A stretch of 64,000 bases of DNA from a virus. The stretch is taken from the IMG/VR virus record IMGVR_UViG_3300025141_016157, positions 62,001-126,000 of that record; one strand, written 5' to 3'. The notes below the pieces were generated by a model, which was given only the letters and a program-made list of their open reading frames with translations, made no database searches and had not been told where the DNA came from. Both the position numbers and the translations under genes were made by a program. Position 1 is the stretch's first letter. Each line of letters opens with the position of its first letter. This document shows positions 26,979-62,436 of this stretch, piece after piece.

Positions 26979-28163
26979 ATGATTTTAGCAATTTCATCTC
27001 GAACAATAGGGTCTGATCTCAATTTAATCTTCGATGGATCAGAATGGTCATGGTCAAAGAATTTTCCGAAAGAATCTCTTCTCTGGGGTTTTGAAGACTA
27101 TAGAGATTTAAGAGATGCAGCTAGCTCACTAAAGCTAGATATTCCAGAATTTTGGAATACACCGTGGGGAAATGCTCAATCACACGTTCAAAAAAAGTTT
27201 TCATATGTAAAGTGGCAACATGCACTCCCGGTATCACAGTGGAAAGATATAGTAACAAGGCTTGTAGATCAGCTCTGGAGACATTTCTCATGTGAAGATA
27301 ACAGTTACTATGTTAGTACTCACATAAGAAATCGTAGAATCACCCAGGGACTCTCTAGGCCTATTGTATCGGACGCTCTGTGTAGGGAGAAGATAGATAG
27401 CGCAAAGAACGGAAAAAGAGGGCTTGTAGAAAGATTTTTGCCTATAGATGATGGAAAGCCAGAAAGGTCGATATACTCATTTTCAAACACAGTTACTGGT
27501 AGAATGACAATAAAAAAAGGTCCAAACATTCTTACTTTAAAAAAAGAAGATAGAAATATTCTTAAATCTAGATTTAAGAATGGAAAACTTATAGAGATAG
27601 ACCTTCAATCTGCAGAGCCAAGAGTTGCACTTTCTATGTTTGACAAACATATAGACGGAGACATATACAGTGAGATAATAAAGTCGCTTGGCATGAATAT
27701 TACAAGAGATATATCAAAAATTGCAACAATATCAGCACTCTATGGTGCATCACATCATGCTTTGTCATCACATGTTTCAAATAGCTCTGATGCAATGAAA
27801 ATCATAGATTCAGTAAAGGAGTACTTTGGAGTCAGGCATTTAGAAAAAATGATTATAGATCAACACAGTGAGAACTCGTATATTACAAATACGCATGGTA
27901 GAAAAATCTTTTCAGAATCAGCCAGCGTTAATCATTTAATACAGTCATCTACTGTAGATGTTGCATTTGATGTTTTCGAATTGATTATAGGAAAGATAAA
28001 AGAGTTGAAAATAGATGCAGTTCCAGTGTATATTATACACGATGCTATTATCTTCGATGCTAGAGAAAAAGATCTTGAAAAAATTTATAAAATATGTGAA
28101 GATGGGTTTGTATCAAAAACTGTGAAGACTAGATTTCCAGTTAAAATAAAGGAGATAGAATGA
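26979..28163 (+). CDS. Minimal family A DNA polymerase (polymerase domain only)
   Basis: This 394-aa protein carries the three polymerase motifs of family A. Motif A is EIDLQSAEPRVAL with catalytic Asp208. Motif B is R243xxxK247 with YG at 255-256. Motif C is IIHDAIIFD with Asp355. TGRMT and GPNIL before motif A also fit. It is far shorter than Pol I (928 aa in E. coli) and has no 3'-5' or 5'-3' exonuclease domain; a separate 5'-3' exonuclease lies at 32859. Motif C has Ala356 where Glu is usual, and Ile251 lies at the motif B position usually Phe/Tyr. It overlaps the HD gene by 4 nt. A DnaE-type polymerase is also encoded at 49421, so the division of labour is unknown. Confidence 0.82.
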   Translation: MILAISSRTIGSDLNLIFDGSEWSWSKNFPKESLLWGFEDYRDLRDAASSLKLDIPEFWNTPWGNAQSHVQKKFSYVKWQHALPVSQWKDIVTRLVDQLWRHFSCEDNSYYVSTHIRNRRITQGLSRPIVSDALCREKIDSAKNGKRGLVERFLPIDDGKPERSIYSFSNTVTGRMTIKKGPNILTLKKEDRNILKSRFKNGKLIEIDLQSAEPRVALSMFDKHIDGDIYSEIIKSLGMNITRDISKIATISALYGASHHALSSHVSNSSDAMKIIDSVKEYFGVRHLEKMIIDQHSENSYITNTHGRKIFSESASVNHLIQSSTVDVAFDVFELIIGKIKELKIDAVPVYIIHDAIIFDAREKDLEKIYKICEDGFVSKTVKTRFPVKIKEIE

Positions 28164-28761: not shown

Positions 28762-30480
28762 ATGCCTACTAAGAAAGATAATTTTTTAAAAAGATATTTC
28801 ACACAAAGGTCTGATCTATCAGGACCAATTTCAAGATCTGGCGATGGCTTCGGTGCTGCTGGTGCTATGGGTAGTGGAGATGGGTATAAAGAAAAAATAG
28901 GAAGGGAAAAGATACCGTGGTATCTAAGCGACTTTAGAGGTCAACCATCTATGGCAGCGGACTCAGGATTCTCTTCAATAGTTATGTCAAGAGTAAATAA
29001 GGGAAGAGATGAAATTCACGATCCTAAGAGAATGTTTCCAGATCAAGATGTGAAAGATTCAGATGAGGAAGATAATTACTTATCAAGGGCTCAGCATAAA
29101 ATGAAAGAATCATCACAAAAATATTTTAATGAAAATCATATAGTAAAAAATTCCCAATATTCCCTATCAGAGTTGTCATCCCTTATGGGTGAAGATATTG
29201 ACTGGGAAAGGTTTATACCTGATCCCGTTGAAGACTTGGGATCAAGTATTTCAACAGGCATAAGTGATAACTGGAGATCATTAGTTCCCGACTCACTAGA
29301 AGATGAGGCCGAAGATGCTTACGAGTATGTATCAGATCTTTTATCACAGGCAGCCACCCAGGGAGAAGAGGCGTATGACTTACTTTCAGATAAGATAGAT
29401 ACTCTTACACAAGATTCTGAAACGTTTAGAGACGTTAAAGATATAGCAATGGAAGTCGGCAGAGACTTTATAGCACTAACTGCTGCTGGGATACCAGTAA
29501 TCGGAACACCTCTTGCCGCCGCTTATGTTTTATACAATCTATCAGAGCTAGACGAAGGGCAAGAGCAGGCAAGAAGGTCTATAGATCTACTCTTGACTAA
29601 TGGATCGTATGAAAATCTTGAAAATATGCAAAGAGTATCTGGCGATCTATTTGATGATTACATAGATCTTCTTCAGGCGTCGACATATCTTATTCCGTTT
29701 GTTGGAGTTGGAAGGGGAATTGTTGGGACAGCGGGAAAGCTTTTAAATAGAACAAAAGCTACAACAGCAACTGCTTTTTTAGGCCTAACTGGTTCAAGTG
29801 TTCTAAAGTCTGCTATAAAATCAGAAATACTGCTTAGTAATGTCTTTAAGATTGCAGCCAGGATGGCAAACTCAGACGTTGCTGACTCCCTAGGTTTAGA
29901 CAAAACTTACTTTTTTGATTCAATTGTTAAAATACCATCTACGCTAATAGTCATGGCAGATATTATAGAAGAGGCGATTAAGCAGTATGAATCATGGGAA
30001 CAGTCAGGATCACATTCACAATTTAGATTTAATCCCTCACCTCTTTCACTACAAAGAAGTGAAATTCAAAGTTCTGAAGAGAGGTTAGCAAGTGATGACT
30101 ATTTGACAGGTATCGAAGAGTGGATAAGGTCTGTTTCTAGAGACGTTACAGATTCAGTCCTGGGATCAGGACCAGATATAACAATTGAGGCAAAAAAAAT
30201 GAAAGATAATGAGAAGATATTAAGAGCATTTATTAGAGAGTCAATCTATCATACTACAAGAACTGAGCTAGAAGCAAAACCAGCCGGATGGGAGTACAGA
30301 GTACCACCCACATCAGATGAAGATGATACATCTGCAATGGGATCAGGAAAAGATCTTGTTAATTTTAAAACAGACATGGGATATGCAAGCTATCAGTCAA
30401 GACCAGAGAATATAAAAGAACAAGCGCTAAGACGAATTATTAGAAGAAAAATTAGAATTTCTGAGTCTAAAAAAAAGTAG
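28762..30480 (+). CDS. Large structural-type protein, 0-frame part of a frameshifted gene
   Basis: This 572-aa protein is unrecognised as a whole. The N-terminus is Gly/Ser-rich (RSGDGFGAAGAMGSGDGY). Residues 150-260 are acidic and helical. Two hydrophobic stretches (FIALTAAGIPVIGTPLAAAY and YLIPFVGVGRGIVG) could be membrane-active. Near the end come NEKILRAFIRESI and EQALRRIIRRKIRISESKKK. The frame stops at 30478-30480 immediately after A AAA AAG, and the -1 frame continues for 73 codons. The gene sits in a replication neighbourhood but looks virion-related. Confidence 0.68.
   Translation: MPTKKDNFLKRYFTQRSDLSGPISRSGDGFGAAGAMGSGDGYKEKIGREKIPWYLSDFRGQPSMAADSGFSSIVMSRVNKGRDEIHDPKRMFPDQDVKDSDEEDNYLSRAQHKMKESSQKYFNENHIVKNSQYSLSELSSLMGEDIDWERFIPDPVEDLGSSISTGISDNWRSLVPDSLEDEAEDAYEYVSDLLSQAATQGEEAYDLLSDKIDTLTQDSETFRDVKDIAMEVGRDFIALTAAGIPVIGTPLAAAYVLYNLSELDEGQEQARRSIDLLLTNGSYENLENMQRVSGDLFDDYIDLLQASTYLIPFVGVGRGIVGTAGKLLNRTKATTATAFLGLTGSSVLKSAIKSEILLSNVFKIAARMANSDVADSLGLDKTYFFDSIVKIPSTLIVMADIIEEAIKQYESWEQSGSHSQFRFNPSPLSLQRSEIQSSEERLASDDYLTGIEEWIRSVSRDVTDSVLGSGPDITIEAKKMKDNEKILRAFIRESIYHTTRTELEAKPAGWEYRVPPTSDEDDTSAMGSGKDLVNFKTDMGYASYQSRPENIKEQALRRIIRRKIRISESKKK
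30471..30477 (+). other. Slippery heptamer A AAA AAG for -1 ribosomal frameshifting
   Basis: In the 0 frame the codons read TCT AAA AAA AAG TAG; the heptamer 30471-30477 is A AAA AAG, the efficient E. coli dnaX type. The next 0-frame codon is the stop. A -1 shift continues as GTA GAT AGT into an open frame of 73 codons. No obvious stimulatory hairpin or upstream Shine-Dalgarno was found. The site lies within a run of eight A, so an indel error is the rival explanation. Confidence 0.6.
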
Positions 30481-30698
30481 ATAGTGATAATGAGCCTCTA
30501 GATATTGATGAAGATTGCTCAGCAGAACACATCGACGAATTTAGCTCAATAGGCGGCGGATCAATTTCCGGATACACACTTCCCCTTGGAATGAAAGGCA
30601 AGGGAAGCGCAATGGATAGTGTCTTTCCCTGGAAGAAAGTAAAAAATAAGTCACAAAGTAAGAAAAAAAGATCAAAAAAGACTTCTAAAAAATCTTGA
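30477..30698 (+). CDS. C-terminal extension in the -1 frame (frameshift product)
   Basis: These 73 codons follow the slippery site and end at TGA 30696-30698. The frame has no ATG, GTG or TTG before codon 39, so it is not a free-standing gene. It encodes an acidic part (NEPLDIDEDCSAEHIDEF), then SSIGGGSISGYTLPLG, a Gly-rich peptide I recall at the C-termini of marine phage proteins, then a Lys/Ser-rich tail. It fills most of the 315-bp gap before the SSB gene. The joined product would be about 645 aa. Confidence 0.65.
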   Translation, partial: VDSDNEPLDIDEDCSAEHIDEFSSIGGGSISGYTLPLGMKGKGSAMDSVFPWKKVKNKSQSKKKRSKKTSKKS

Positions 30699-30795: not shown

Positions 30796-31581
30796 ATGGC
30801 AATTGATTTTGAAGCAATTAGAAAAAAGCTTGATCGGCTTAGTGGAGCAACACGAAATAGATCGGTTATGTGGAAACCAACTGAAGGTGAAGAGCACGTC
30901 GTTCGGCTGCTTTCTTTTCCCGATAATGATGGACAACCATTTAGGGAGATGTGGTTCTACTACGGGATTGGAAACAATAGAGGACTATTGGCACCGAACC
31001 AGTTTGGAAAACCTGATCCCATTCAGGAGTTAATTACTAATCTTCGAGAGGATGGGTCAAAGGAGTCTTATGAGCTAGCAAAGAAGCTATATCCAAAGAT
31101 GAGAACATATGCGCCTGTCATTGTTCGCGGAGAAGAGGACAAAGGTGTTCAAATTTGGGGATTTGGAAAGACTGTTTACCAGGCACTTCTAGGTCTCATG
31201 CTTGATGAAGACTATGGTGATATTACAGATCCAAAGACTGGAAGAGATATAAAGGTGTCATGTGTTAAGCAGCCAGGAAGAAAGTGGGCAATGACTGAAG
31301 TTCGACCAAGAGGAAAGCAGTCAAATCTTGCGACTAGCTCCGAGAAAGCTTCAGAGTGGACTACAACTATTCCGAATCTTGATGACATTTATACATGCAA
31401 GACTTACGATGAGCTATCAAAGATTGTCAATGATTGGATCTCTGACGAAGAAGATGATGGATTCGGAAGTGATGGTCTAGATAATTCATCTAATACAACA
31501 AGTACAAGTAGCACGACAGAAGCGTCTAGCAAGTCATACAATAATTTAGACGATGCTTTTGCTGATTTGATGGATGAATAA
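30796..31581 (+). CDS. Single-stranded DNA-binding protein (gp32-like)
   Basis: This 261-aa protein has the gp32 order. A basic N-terminal helix (FEAIRKKLDRLSG) is followed by an OB-fold region containing VRLLSFPDNDGQPFREMWFY and later PVIVRGEEDKGVQIWGFGKT. A Ser/Thr linker then leads to the acidic tail NLDDAFADLMDE that recruits replication partners. T4 gp32 has a His/Cys zinc site; only two cysteines are seen here, so zinc binding looks absent. It has its own promoter and an AAAGGAAAA ribosome site, and is followed by a hairpin and then uvsX. Confidence 0.85.
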   Translation: MAIDFEAIRKKLDRLSGATRNRSVMWKPTEGEEHVVRLLSFPDNDGQPFREMWFYYGIGNNRGLLAPNQFGKPDPIQELITNLREDGSKESYELAKKLYPKMRTYAPVIVRGEEDKGVQIWGFGKTVYQALLGLMLDEDYGDITDPKTGRDIKVSCVKQPGRKWAMTEVRPRGKQSNLATSSEKASEWTTTIPNLDDIYTCKTYDELSKIVNDWISDEEDDGFGSDGLDNSSNTTSTSSTTEASSKSYNNLDDAFADLMDE

Positions 31582-32858: not shown

Positions 32859-33806
32859 ATGGACACATGTATAATTGTTGACGGATTAAACTTATTTACT
32901 AGACACTTTGTTGCAAATCCATCTACAAATCAGAACGGAGAGAGTGTAGGTGGTATTACTGGTACCGTCACTGCTATATCAAGACTTTCGGAAAGATTTA
33001 GCCCAGACAGAATTGTAGTCGTATGGGAATCTGGTGGGTCCTCGAGAAAGCGTGCAATTTTTCCAAACTATAAGTCAGGTAGAAGACCGCAAAGGCTTAA
33101 TAGATACTACGGTGATGACATACCCGACACAGTTGAAAATAGAGACAACCAGTTAGAAATTCTAATATCAATTTTAAGAAATATGCCCATAGTTCAGATA
33201 TACATTCCAGACTGCGAAGCAGATGATGTCATCGGGTATCTTTCAAAGTATACACTAAGAGAAATGAGAAAAGTAATTGTTTCATCAGATAAGGATTTTT
33301 ATCAGCTTTTAGACAAGAATACATTAATTTACTCACCTACATGGAAAAAGTTTGTTTCTTTTAAACAAGTTAGAGAAAAATTTGAAATATCTGCACAGAA
33401 TTTCTGTCTTGGAAAATCAATATGCGGCGACGTGTCAGATAATATTGACGGAATCAAAGGCGCAGGATTTAAAACTGTTGCAAAAAGGTTTCCAAGATTT
33501 AGGGAGGAAAATTTTTTTACAATTTCTGAACTTATGGCTGAGTGTAGCAGGAAGATAGAAAGTGGCTCTAAGGTTAAGATATACAAGTCGATAATTGAAA
33601 ATGAAGATGTCATAAGGCGAAACTGGAAATTAATTAATCTTGACACTAACAATTTATCACACAGCCAAATTGCTAAAATAGTAAATTCAATTGATACTTT
33701 TAGCCCTACACGAAATAAAATGAATATATTGAAAATTTTTAAAAATCACGCAATTCAAAATATTGACGTAGATAGATTTTTTTTATCAATGAAATTACTC
33801 AAATAA
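32859..33806 (+). CDS. 5'-3' exonuclease / flap endonuclease (FEN family)
   Basis: This 315-aa protein matches the Pol I N-terminal/T4 RNase H nuclease fold. Acidic metal ligands appear in IIVDGLNLFTRHF (Asp8), DCEADDVIGYL and VSSDKDFYQLL. A helix-hairpin-helix follows (GDVSDNIDGIKGAGFKTVAK). It should remove RNA primers and flaps. The polymerase part of a Pol I-like enzyme is a separate gene at 26979, so the two activities are split. It is tightly packed between uvsX and the helicase. Confidence 0.87.
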   Translation: MDTCIIVDGLNLFTRHFVANPSTNQNGESVGGITGTVTAISRLSERFSPDRIVVVWESGGSSRKRAIFPNYKSGRRPQRLNRYYGDDIPDTVENRDNQLEILISILRNMPIVQIYIPDCEADDVIGYLSKYTLREMRKVIVSSDKDFYQLLDKNTLIYSPTWKKFVSFKQVREKFEISAQNFCLGKSICGDVSDNIDGIKGAGFKTVAKRFPRFREENFFTISELMAECSRKIESGSKVKIYKSIIENEDVIRRNWKLINLDTNNLSHSQIAKIVNSIDTFSPTRNKMNILKIFKNHAIQNIDVDRFFLSMKLLK

Positions 33807-48000: not shown

Positions 48001-48809
48001 CTCACTGAATGTTTAATATTTGTGTAGAGCTTAGTTAGAAATTTCTCTAGAGATTTTCTATCATTCTTTAATGTTTCTTTATATCTGGAAACTATTCCAG
48101 CAAGATCAGAGTCTTGCCTTTTGATAAGTGAAAGCGCTTCTTCTTGCGTGTATTTATCTAAAAGCTGCTCAGATGCTTCATATGCAAATGCATCAATTTC
48201 ATTATGAAGGCTAAGGTAGTCTTCCTGCGTTCCGCCTTTTGACAACTGCTTGGGATCGTTCTGTAGTTCTTCCCATGCCTCTTCTTCACTAATCCCTTTG
48301 CTTTCTGCCTGTTTCTTAAGTTGATTATAGTGAACTAGTTCATGGTTGATAGTTCGTGATATTATCTTTGATAGCTCTGTAGAGTCTAAGTCATCCATAT
48401 CATACTCATCAGAGTAGGGTCTAAACTCAAGCCATATAATGTGTTTCCCATTTTCAGGACCTCTGTATTGACCTCTCATCATCCAGTTGCTAGGATATCC
48501 TCCATATTCATCTCCCGGTCCTAAAGTATATAGCTCATTATCTGTAACACTGAGGAAAAAATATAGATCTGTACCAAGATCACTAGCAGATGTATTTAGT
48601 GCATCCATAAGAGTTTCAATTGCAGGAGTTGACCAGGTCGACTCATCAACAAGATCTACATCATTTTCATTGTGAGCCATTTCCCAAAACTTAGAATCGA
48701 CAATTCCTTGAAAAATAGCTGATGTCAATTCTTTATCAGGTGCTGTTGATTCACACAGCAAGATCTCTTCCTTGATGATCTGTCTTAATTGCCTGCGTGT
48801 GATTTTCAT
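47997..48809 (-). CDS. Capsid-targeting-like N-terminus plus HExxH metallopeptidase
   Basis: This 270-aa protein reads leftward. It begins MKITRRQLRQIIKEEILLCE with a possible LCE|S cleavage at residue 20. RTINHELVHYNQL (His156-Glu157-His160) is a zinc-peptidase motif, and LHNEIDAFAYEASEQ (Glu204) is the likely third ligand. Residues 60-140 form a mixed domain with aromatic strands. Its inverted orientation among plus-strand genes and its shared N-terminus suggest an independently mobile cassette. The protease target is unknown. Confidence 0.75.
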   Translation of the reverse strand: MKITRRQLRQIIKEEILLCESTAPDKELTSAIFQGIVDSKFWEMAHNENDVDLVDESTWSTPAIETLMDALNTSASDLGTDLYFFLSVTDNELYTLGPGDEYGGYPSNWMMRGQYRGPENGKHIIWLEFRPYSDEYDMDDLDSTELSKIISRTINHELVHYNQLKKQAESKGISEEEAWEELQNDPKQLSKGGTQEDYLSLHNEIDAFAYEASEQLLDKYTQEEALSLIKRQDSDLAGIVSRYKETLKNDRKSLEKFLTKLYTNIKHSVS

Positions 48810-61521: not shown

Positions 61522-62436
61522 ATGATTGAACCTACTAGTGTAAATTGCGTAATTTATCATGCTGATTGTACCGATGGTTTTGGTGCTGCTTATGCCGCAT
61601 GGAAATGCTTGGGCAATAGAGCTGAATATCATCCATGTAAGCACGGCATGGATACACCAGACATAACGGGAAAAAGCGTTGTTATTTTAGATTTTTCCTT
61701 TGACAACTCAACAACAAAAAAAATGATTTCTGATGCTGAGTCATTGCTTGTAATTGACCATCATAAATCTGCAATGGTTGAGTTGCATGATATTACTAAT
61801 ACTCGTTTTGATATGACTAAGAGCGGAGCAATGCTAGCTTGGGAATTTTTTCATCCCGGGAAAGAACCTCCAAAGTTCATCCAGTATATTCAAGATAGAG
61901 ATCTTTGGAAGTGGGAACTCCCATACTCAAGAGAGTTTGCAGCAGCGTTTGACATGGTACCATTTGAGTTTGAAGAATTTGAGAAGTTTGAAGATGATTC
62001 TGTATTTGATGATGCTAGAAAGAGAGGGTCCTTTATCCTAGCTTATTCTAAGACAGTTGTTAAGAAAGTGTGTGAAAAAGCATCACCTCGAAAAATGATG
62101 GGAAAGGATGTAATGGTGGTAAATGCTTCACACTGGATGTCAGAGATTGGAGCTAGACTAGCTCCTGACTGTGATCTTGCTATGATATGGTACTGGGATC
62201 ATGATGCAAAGCATACAAAAGTTAGCCTAAGAGCGTTTCATGATACCGTAGACGTTTCAGAGATAGCTAAGAAATTTGGCGGAGGCGGGCATAGAAAAGC
62301 AGCGGGATTTCAACTTCCAAAAAATAAGCATGTAGAAGATTTATTTGATAAGCCAAAGCCTGCAAAGAAGAAGAGGGTGACAAGGCCAAAAACTAAAGCA
62401 AAGCAAGATCAGCAAAAAAAAGATGATGAAAAATAA
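61522..62436 (+). CDS. DHH-family phosphoesterase
   Basis: This 304-aa protein has VIYHADCTDGFGAAYAAWK (about 10-28), VVILDFSFD, LLVIDHHKSA (the DHH motif) and the C-terminal DHHA1-type FGGGGHRKAAGFQL. This is the pattern of NrnA/RecJ-like phosphoesterases that degrade short oligonucleotides or cyclic dinucleotides. The end is a Lys-rich tail. Possible roles include nucleotide recycling or removal of host cyclic-dinucleotide signals; which is not determined. It lies in the nucleotide gene run. Confidence 0.85.
   Translation: MIEPTSVNCVIYHADCTDGFGAAYAAWKCLGNRAEYHPCKHGMDTPDITGKSVVILDFSFDNSTTKKMISDAESLLVIDHHKSAMVELHDITNTRFDMTKSGAMLAWEFFHPGKEPPKFIQYIQDRDLWKWELPYSREFAAAFDMVPFEFEEFEKFEDDSVFDDARKRGSFILAYSKTVVKKVCEKASPRKMMGKDVMVVNASHWMSEIGARLAPDCDLAMIWYWDHDAKHTKVSLRAFHDTVDVSEIAKKFGGGGHRKAAGFQLPKNKHVEDLFDKPKPAKKKRVTRPKTKAKQDQQKKDDEK

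Follow-up and report, generated by a model that had tools for sequence, protein, structure and literature searches.

A conserved poly-A run at a frame junction that probably gives a phage protein two lengths

We report a probable conserved recoding site in the window, i.e. the whole stretch of 64,000 nucleotides that was analyzed (positions 62,001 to 126,000 of the virus record IMGVR_UViG_3300025141_016157). Slippage at a poly-A run would lead to two forms of one protein, a 572-aa form ended by TAG and a 645-aa form with a Lys-rich tail that carries the motif EFSxxGGGxxxGYTLPLG. From the comparison of sequences we give this reading a probability of roughly 0.6. For the family, transcriptional slippage at the run appears to be a somewhat better fit than ribosomal frameshifting, while the case for it at the window's own junction is about even. 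About 36 related viruses share this arrangement, and on the strength of that recurrence we take it for a genuine regulatory device rather than an error of sequencing. The features at and around the junction are the following.

28762..30480, + strand: 0-frame gene of 572 aa (ORF list; family alignment of 14-18 homologues)
30469..30476, + strand: slippery run of eight A, which together with G30477 gives the in-phase heptamer A AAA AAG (sequence; homologous runs have 9-12 A)
30478..30480, + strand: 0-frame stop TAG immediately 3' of the run (closeness of stop and run is kept in relatives, with at most 4 codons in 22/29)
30477..30698, + strand: tail in the -1 frame, 73 codons plus TGA (tail alignment; dN/dS; no start codon before 30591)
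30796..31581, + strand: downstream gene of a gp32-like ssDNA-binding protein, used as bait for finding relatives

In the window sequence the 0-frame of the 572-aa gene ends with TCT AAA AAA AAG TAG, and the original prediction of a frame that stops directly after A AAA AAG is thereby confirmed. From 30471 onwards the -1 frame has no stop before the TGA at 30696-30698. Its new part comprises 73 codons (30477-30695) and translates to VDSDNEPL...EFSSIGGGSISGYTLPLG...KKS. The earliest ATG, GTG or TTG in this frame is the 39th codon at 30591, past the Gly-rich motif, in agreement with the earlier statement that the first 38 codons are startless. The predicted long form would read ...SKKKVDSD... at the junction, with the spanning peptide ESKKK-VDSDNEPLDIDEDCSAEHIDEFSS, and this 645-aa product is identical for a transcriptional and a ribosomal route. 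A second contig with the window virus, IMGVR_UViG_3300002514_000266, has the same A8 and no differences over 6,376 bases; it could not be shown to be an assembly independent of the window record. Another A8 run lies inside the 572-aa gene (30192-30199, GCA AAA AAA ATG), where a -1 slip would lead to an end after a few codons.

Direct searches with the 572-aa protein or its tail returned only the same virus among viral contigs and nothing among INPHARED phages. Relatives were therefore recovered with the neighboring gp32-like gene as bait, and a few more with the N-terminal signature. After removal of near-duplicates 89 gp32-like loci with usable upstream sequence were compared. Many of the relatives possess, upstream of the gp32-like gene, a homologue ending with ...LRRIIRR...ESKKK and a tail in another frame. 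These tails start with KKK, usually followed by [VIL]D, and contain the motif [DE][EQ]xS...GxxxPLG and a Lys/Arg-rich end. The gene is split at a poly-A run in 29 of the 89 loci, 27 of which need a shift of -1 and two a shift of +1 (L012, L019). Seven further relatives (L007, L017, L057, L116, L118, L253, L263) keep the run in frame. As a -1-frame stop follows 0-4 codons past the run in these seven, slippage would still yield two lengths there, with the short form as the minor product.

One-frame fusions were scored in 15 loci, a count which is too low since the motif scoring missed L006, L013 and L017 among others and entered them as “none”. A small separate tail ORF with its own start is present in 26 of the 89. 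The closest relatives of the window, L005 and L006, have a continuous gene without the run. On the gp32 tree, well-supported branches alone call for five or more changes of the split state, and parsimony for 10-12; the junction counts are not phylogenetically independent. Two isolate phages encode a similar gp32 (Microcystis Mel-JY01, Flavobacterium immuto); their genes just upstream contain no such tail, and no further copies of the tail or its motif were found in the virus record. We also observed stand-alone ORFs with the tail motif just upstream of the gp32-like gene (L061, L065, L067, L080, L182 and others), which have approximately 75-95 aa and a start resembling MRNLxLLREYIRRLLE, without the large N-terminal part.

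That both parts belong to one protein, as had been claimed from the window alone, is borne out by the relatives: many others are split alike, and homologues with both parts in a single frame, the proposed check, exist in L005, L017, L043, L057, L060, L116 and L118. The predicted joined product of the two frames is thus one 645-aa protein. For most of the diverged pairs (56-86% identical) the dN/dS of the tail in the shifted frame is approximately 0.06-0.35, and by this measure the tails are under purifying selection in that frame. The short form is probably wanted as well as the long form, because a 0-frame stop near the run is far more common than expected by chance: the 22/29 split junctions with a stop within 4 codons compare to an expectation of 14%, taken from the stop rate farther along the 0-frame (binomial value about 1e-13, ignoring shared ancestry). 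The stop is TAG in 22/29 split junctions, since the tail usually starts with an xTA GAy codon pair. Across the whole phage group gene callers miss this C-terminus of the protein.

The length of the run bears on the mechanism. It amounts to 8 A in the window, whose A8G is the shortest among the 29 split junctions, and to 9-12 A in the other 28. The runs begin in all three codon phases, and in 28/29 they reach at least 9 A regardless of phase. An in-phase A AAA AAN needs 6, 7 or 8 A, set by the codon position at which the run starts. Where it starts at codon position 2 or 3, 6-7 A are sufficient for the heptamer, and all 17 of 17 such junctions have at least 9 A. We counted 397 in-phase heptamers in these coding sequences, usually within runs of 6-7 A. 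Elsewhere in coding sequence only 8 of 388 lie in a run of at least 9 A, and most of these few background runs are in-frame copies of the same junction. In approximately 233,000 codons 35 out of 38 runs of at least 9 A are located at the junction (29 split, 6 in frame). No downstream stimulatory RNA structure was found at the 29 junctions (mean z -0.06 for 60 nt and -0.34 for 90 nt; window z 0.23), and SD-like sequences are few.

We favor slippage of the RNA polymerase because the run is kept, the frame is indifferent, RNA structure is absent and SD-like sites are few. The RNA polymerase would at times insert an extra A when copying the run. In the fraction of mRNA with the added A the frames would be fused, and ordinary translation would lead to the long form. 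For the window member, with its A8 and in-phase A AAA AAG, a -1 slip of the ribosome could serve equally. Several points speak against the transcriptional route: the bias towards -1 (27 vs 2) is explained only if insertion of a single A dominates, the A8 of the window represents the lower edge for slippage of RNA polymerase, and the window site is a textbook A AAA AAG with the stop next to it.

Programmed -1 ribosomal frameshifting, by a tandem slip of tRNA-Lys on A AAA AAG (or A AAA AAA) with help from the adjacent stop, would produce the same 645-aa form, and we regard it as a possible though less convincing explanation. The original prediction had called it probable. Of this claim the union of the two frames in one protein, the heptamer and the stop are borne out, but the ribosomal nature of the shift is not established by the family, given at least 9 A regardless of phase, +1 and in-frame variants, and no structure. 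In its favor the window heptamer is in phase and immediately followed by the stop, every -1 junction run includes an in-phase A AAA AAN, and the need for -1 in 27/29 junctions is what a ribosomal slip directly predicts. The phase of the heptamer is, however, uninformative, because any A-run of this length automatically holds an in-phase heptamer. The sufficient runs of 6-7 A, common elsewhere, are used at no junction; a +1 shift is needed at two junctions, and at seven others the run is read in frame. Stimulatory structure and a good supply of SD-like sites are missing; a stimulator is also absent from some bacterial cases of ribosomal frameshifting. Ribosome sliding on pure poly-A was weak in vitro at A9-A10 and robust only from A11 (PMC4363877).

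Phase variation, in which replication slippage at the run would switch single genomes from one length to the other, seems very unlikely to us. Sister phages do differ in run length and frame (L115 is split with A9, L116 and L118 are in frame with A10), but within one virus the run length is constant across contigs from different samples, and a 0-frame stop kept near the run suits two products of one genome. There is still less reason to regard the tail as a separate gene translated by reinitiation, or as decaying sequence. In 26/89 relatives a small ORF with a start codon of its own carries a similar motif, as would fit a separate gene, yet the first start codon in the window falls past the conserved motif, most split relatives are startless for 18-60 codons or throughout, dN/dS is well under 1, and fused relatives exist.

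An error of sequencing or assembly in the homopolymer, which would leave a continuous true gene, is equally improbable, even though the run is a homopolymer and the close relatives L005 and L006 are continuous. Of the 89 genes directly preceding the gp32-like gene, 28 carry a run of at least 8 A no more than 60 nt from the stop. Among the gp32 genes there is none (0 of 90), and among the remaining genes there are four (4 of 465); these four (L014, L021, L022, L133) belong to the same family and are displaced by inserted genes. The split is seen in 29 distinct regions, with a consistent direction of the shift and more 0-frame stops close to the run than expected. Run length is shared by contigs of one virus from different metagenomes (four contigs with A11, three with A10, four with A9, three with A9 and four with A9, and pairs with A10 and A11), although a single sample may have been assembled more than once in some of these cases. 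The one-base error in the A run that had been considered at the outset is rejected for the family because independent contigs agree on the length of the run. Individually, an error could account for the two +1 cases and for the tail of L040. In L040 a change of frame interrupts the tail ORF when it is compared with that of the near-twin L039; this looks like an indel or an assembly error.

Lambda gpG/gpGT is a short and an extended product made from one gene by a -1 shift. The phage family is similar to it, and to related tail assembly chaperones, in this pairing of a short and an extended product. It differs in showing no recognized similarity, in its replication-gene neighbors instead of major tail and tape-measure genes, and in a long homopolymer instead of a short heptamer. 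A tail assembly chaperone (G/GT) is not supported as identity of the window protein, which has no PHROG hit and no Pfam hit above the cut-off and is surrounded by pol A, HD-domain, gp32 and uvsX genes.

In Citrobacter rodentium tssM1 (also in tssM of the Yersinia T6SS-3) transcriptional frameshifting at A11 produces two length variants, both of which are required (PMC4256274). As in tssM1, a poly-A run stands just before the stop, an added A would fuse a C-terminal extension, and no SD sequence or RNA structure accompanies it. Unlike this bacterial secretion gene, the present case is a phage family with 8-12 A, many lineages and shuffled C-terminal modules. A-runs longer than 7 are used in programmed transcriptional realignment (PMC3711429), and runs of 8-9 A in bacterial IS elements (PMC1088944). 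The conservation of such runs at the frame junction is in agreement with the A8-A10 runs of transcriptional slippage in Thermus-type dnaX and IS elements (PMC5009743, PMC3711429, PMC1088944), whose proteins and functions are unrelated. Phage coat and tail proteins can obtain Ig-like C-terminal extensions by -1, +1 or in-frame fusion (PMC5009743). Here, too, part of the molecules of a phage protein would receive a C-terminal module, with variation between -1, +1 and in frame among related phages. The tail is, however, not Ig-like (no Pfam or PHROG match), the slippery site is a long poly-A run, and the gene adjoins gp32/uvsX outside the head-tail cluster. An Ig-like extension was accordingly rejected, the 73-aa tail being without a family match.

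The 572-aa protein consists of an N-terminal signature (GGGDDYKxKIGR..PSxxAD..FSS..MFPxQ), a helical hydrophobic middle and two LRxFIRE-type motifs near the C-terminus; the tail adds an acidic stretch, the EFSxxGGGxxxGYTLPLG motif and a Lys/Arg-rich end. The same modular order is found in the family: the N-terminal signature is conserved and the helical middle variable, and LRxFIRE motifs, an acidic linker, GxxxPLG and a basic end follow. Profile searches against Pfam, PHROG and PDB gave no convincing match for the protein family, and for the window protein there was no PHROG hit and no Pfam hit above the cut-off. One of 18 homologues had a weak tape-measure PHROG hit (E 0.0045). The AlphaFold2 model (18 sequences) is mainly helical and of low confidence. 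As its mean pLDDT is 53 and Foldseek returned nothing from the PDB at E<0.001, we make no claim about the fold.

Side observations concern the appended part and the neighborhood. In L022 (3400-4470; also in L023 and L024) the -1 frame entered at the same slip site (TC A9 G TAG) encodes first a GDSL-type hydrolase domain and then the usual tail motif; the Pfam match (PF13472, 9e-16) was obtained with L022. The domain is an insertion behind the recoding site. In L049, L051, L052, L053 and L059 the run comes after the PxG motif, and no more than the final 30-40 residues (..GGSLVDPDLAMSYYDTAAGFARG) are gained by the shift. The family-A DNA polymerase gene of the window (26979-28163, Pfam polymerase domain match) encodes just 394 aa. 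A 315-aa ORF (32859-33806) lies at the same place as the 5'-3' exonuclease gene of Flavobacterium phage immuto and may represent the separate exonuclease of this polymerase. Three other window proteins (ORFs at about 53003 and 55300 on the + strand and near 48800 on the - strand) have N-termini of the MKIT..xRRIIREEL type that resemble the LRxFIRE motifs. These LRxFIRE-like peptides are possibly a common targeting or assembly signal.

The internal head proteins of T4 are diverse, with a capsid targeting sequence as their only common feature (PMC3012670). By analogy one might guess that motifs of the present family act as such a sequence. The protein itself is, we would guess, a modular protein of the virion or the internal head whose targeting tail is removable.

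The extension of phage proteins by recoding and transcriptional slippage are each well known. Most documented cases of programmed transcriptional slippage come from bacterial genes, IS elements and RNA viruses. Our literature search yielded no report of a conserved, frame-indifferent poly-A case in tailed phages, apart from slippage suggested for one Campylobacter phage methyltransferase (PMC2853527). The about 36 related regions represent a natural experiment in which the run length is held and the frame drifts, and transcriptional and ribosomal slippage should therefore be directly separable by experiment. We consider it an even chance that this widespread family of uncultivated marine phages employs programmed slippage of the RNA polymerase at poly-A as a frame-indifferent switch, which would set the ratio of the two lengths, and that it swaps the appended module, be it just the short tail with GxxxPLG or a GDSL hydrolase followed by the tail.
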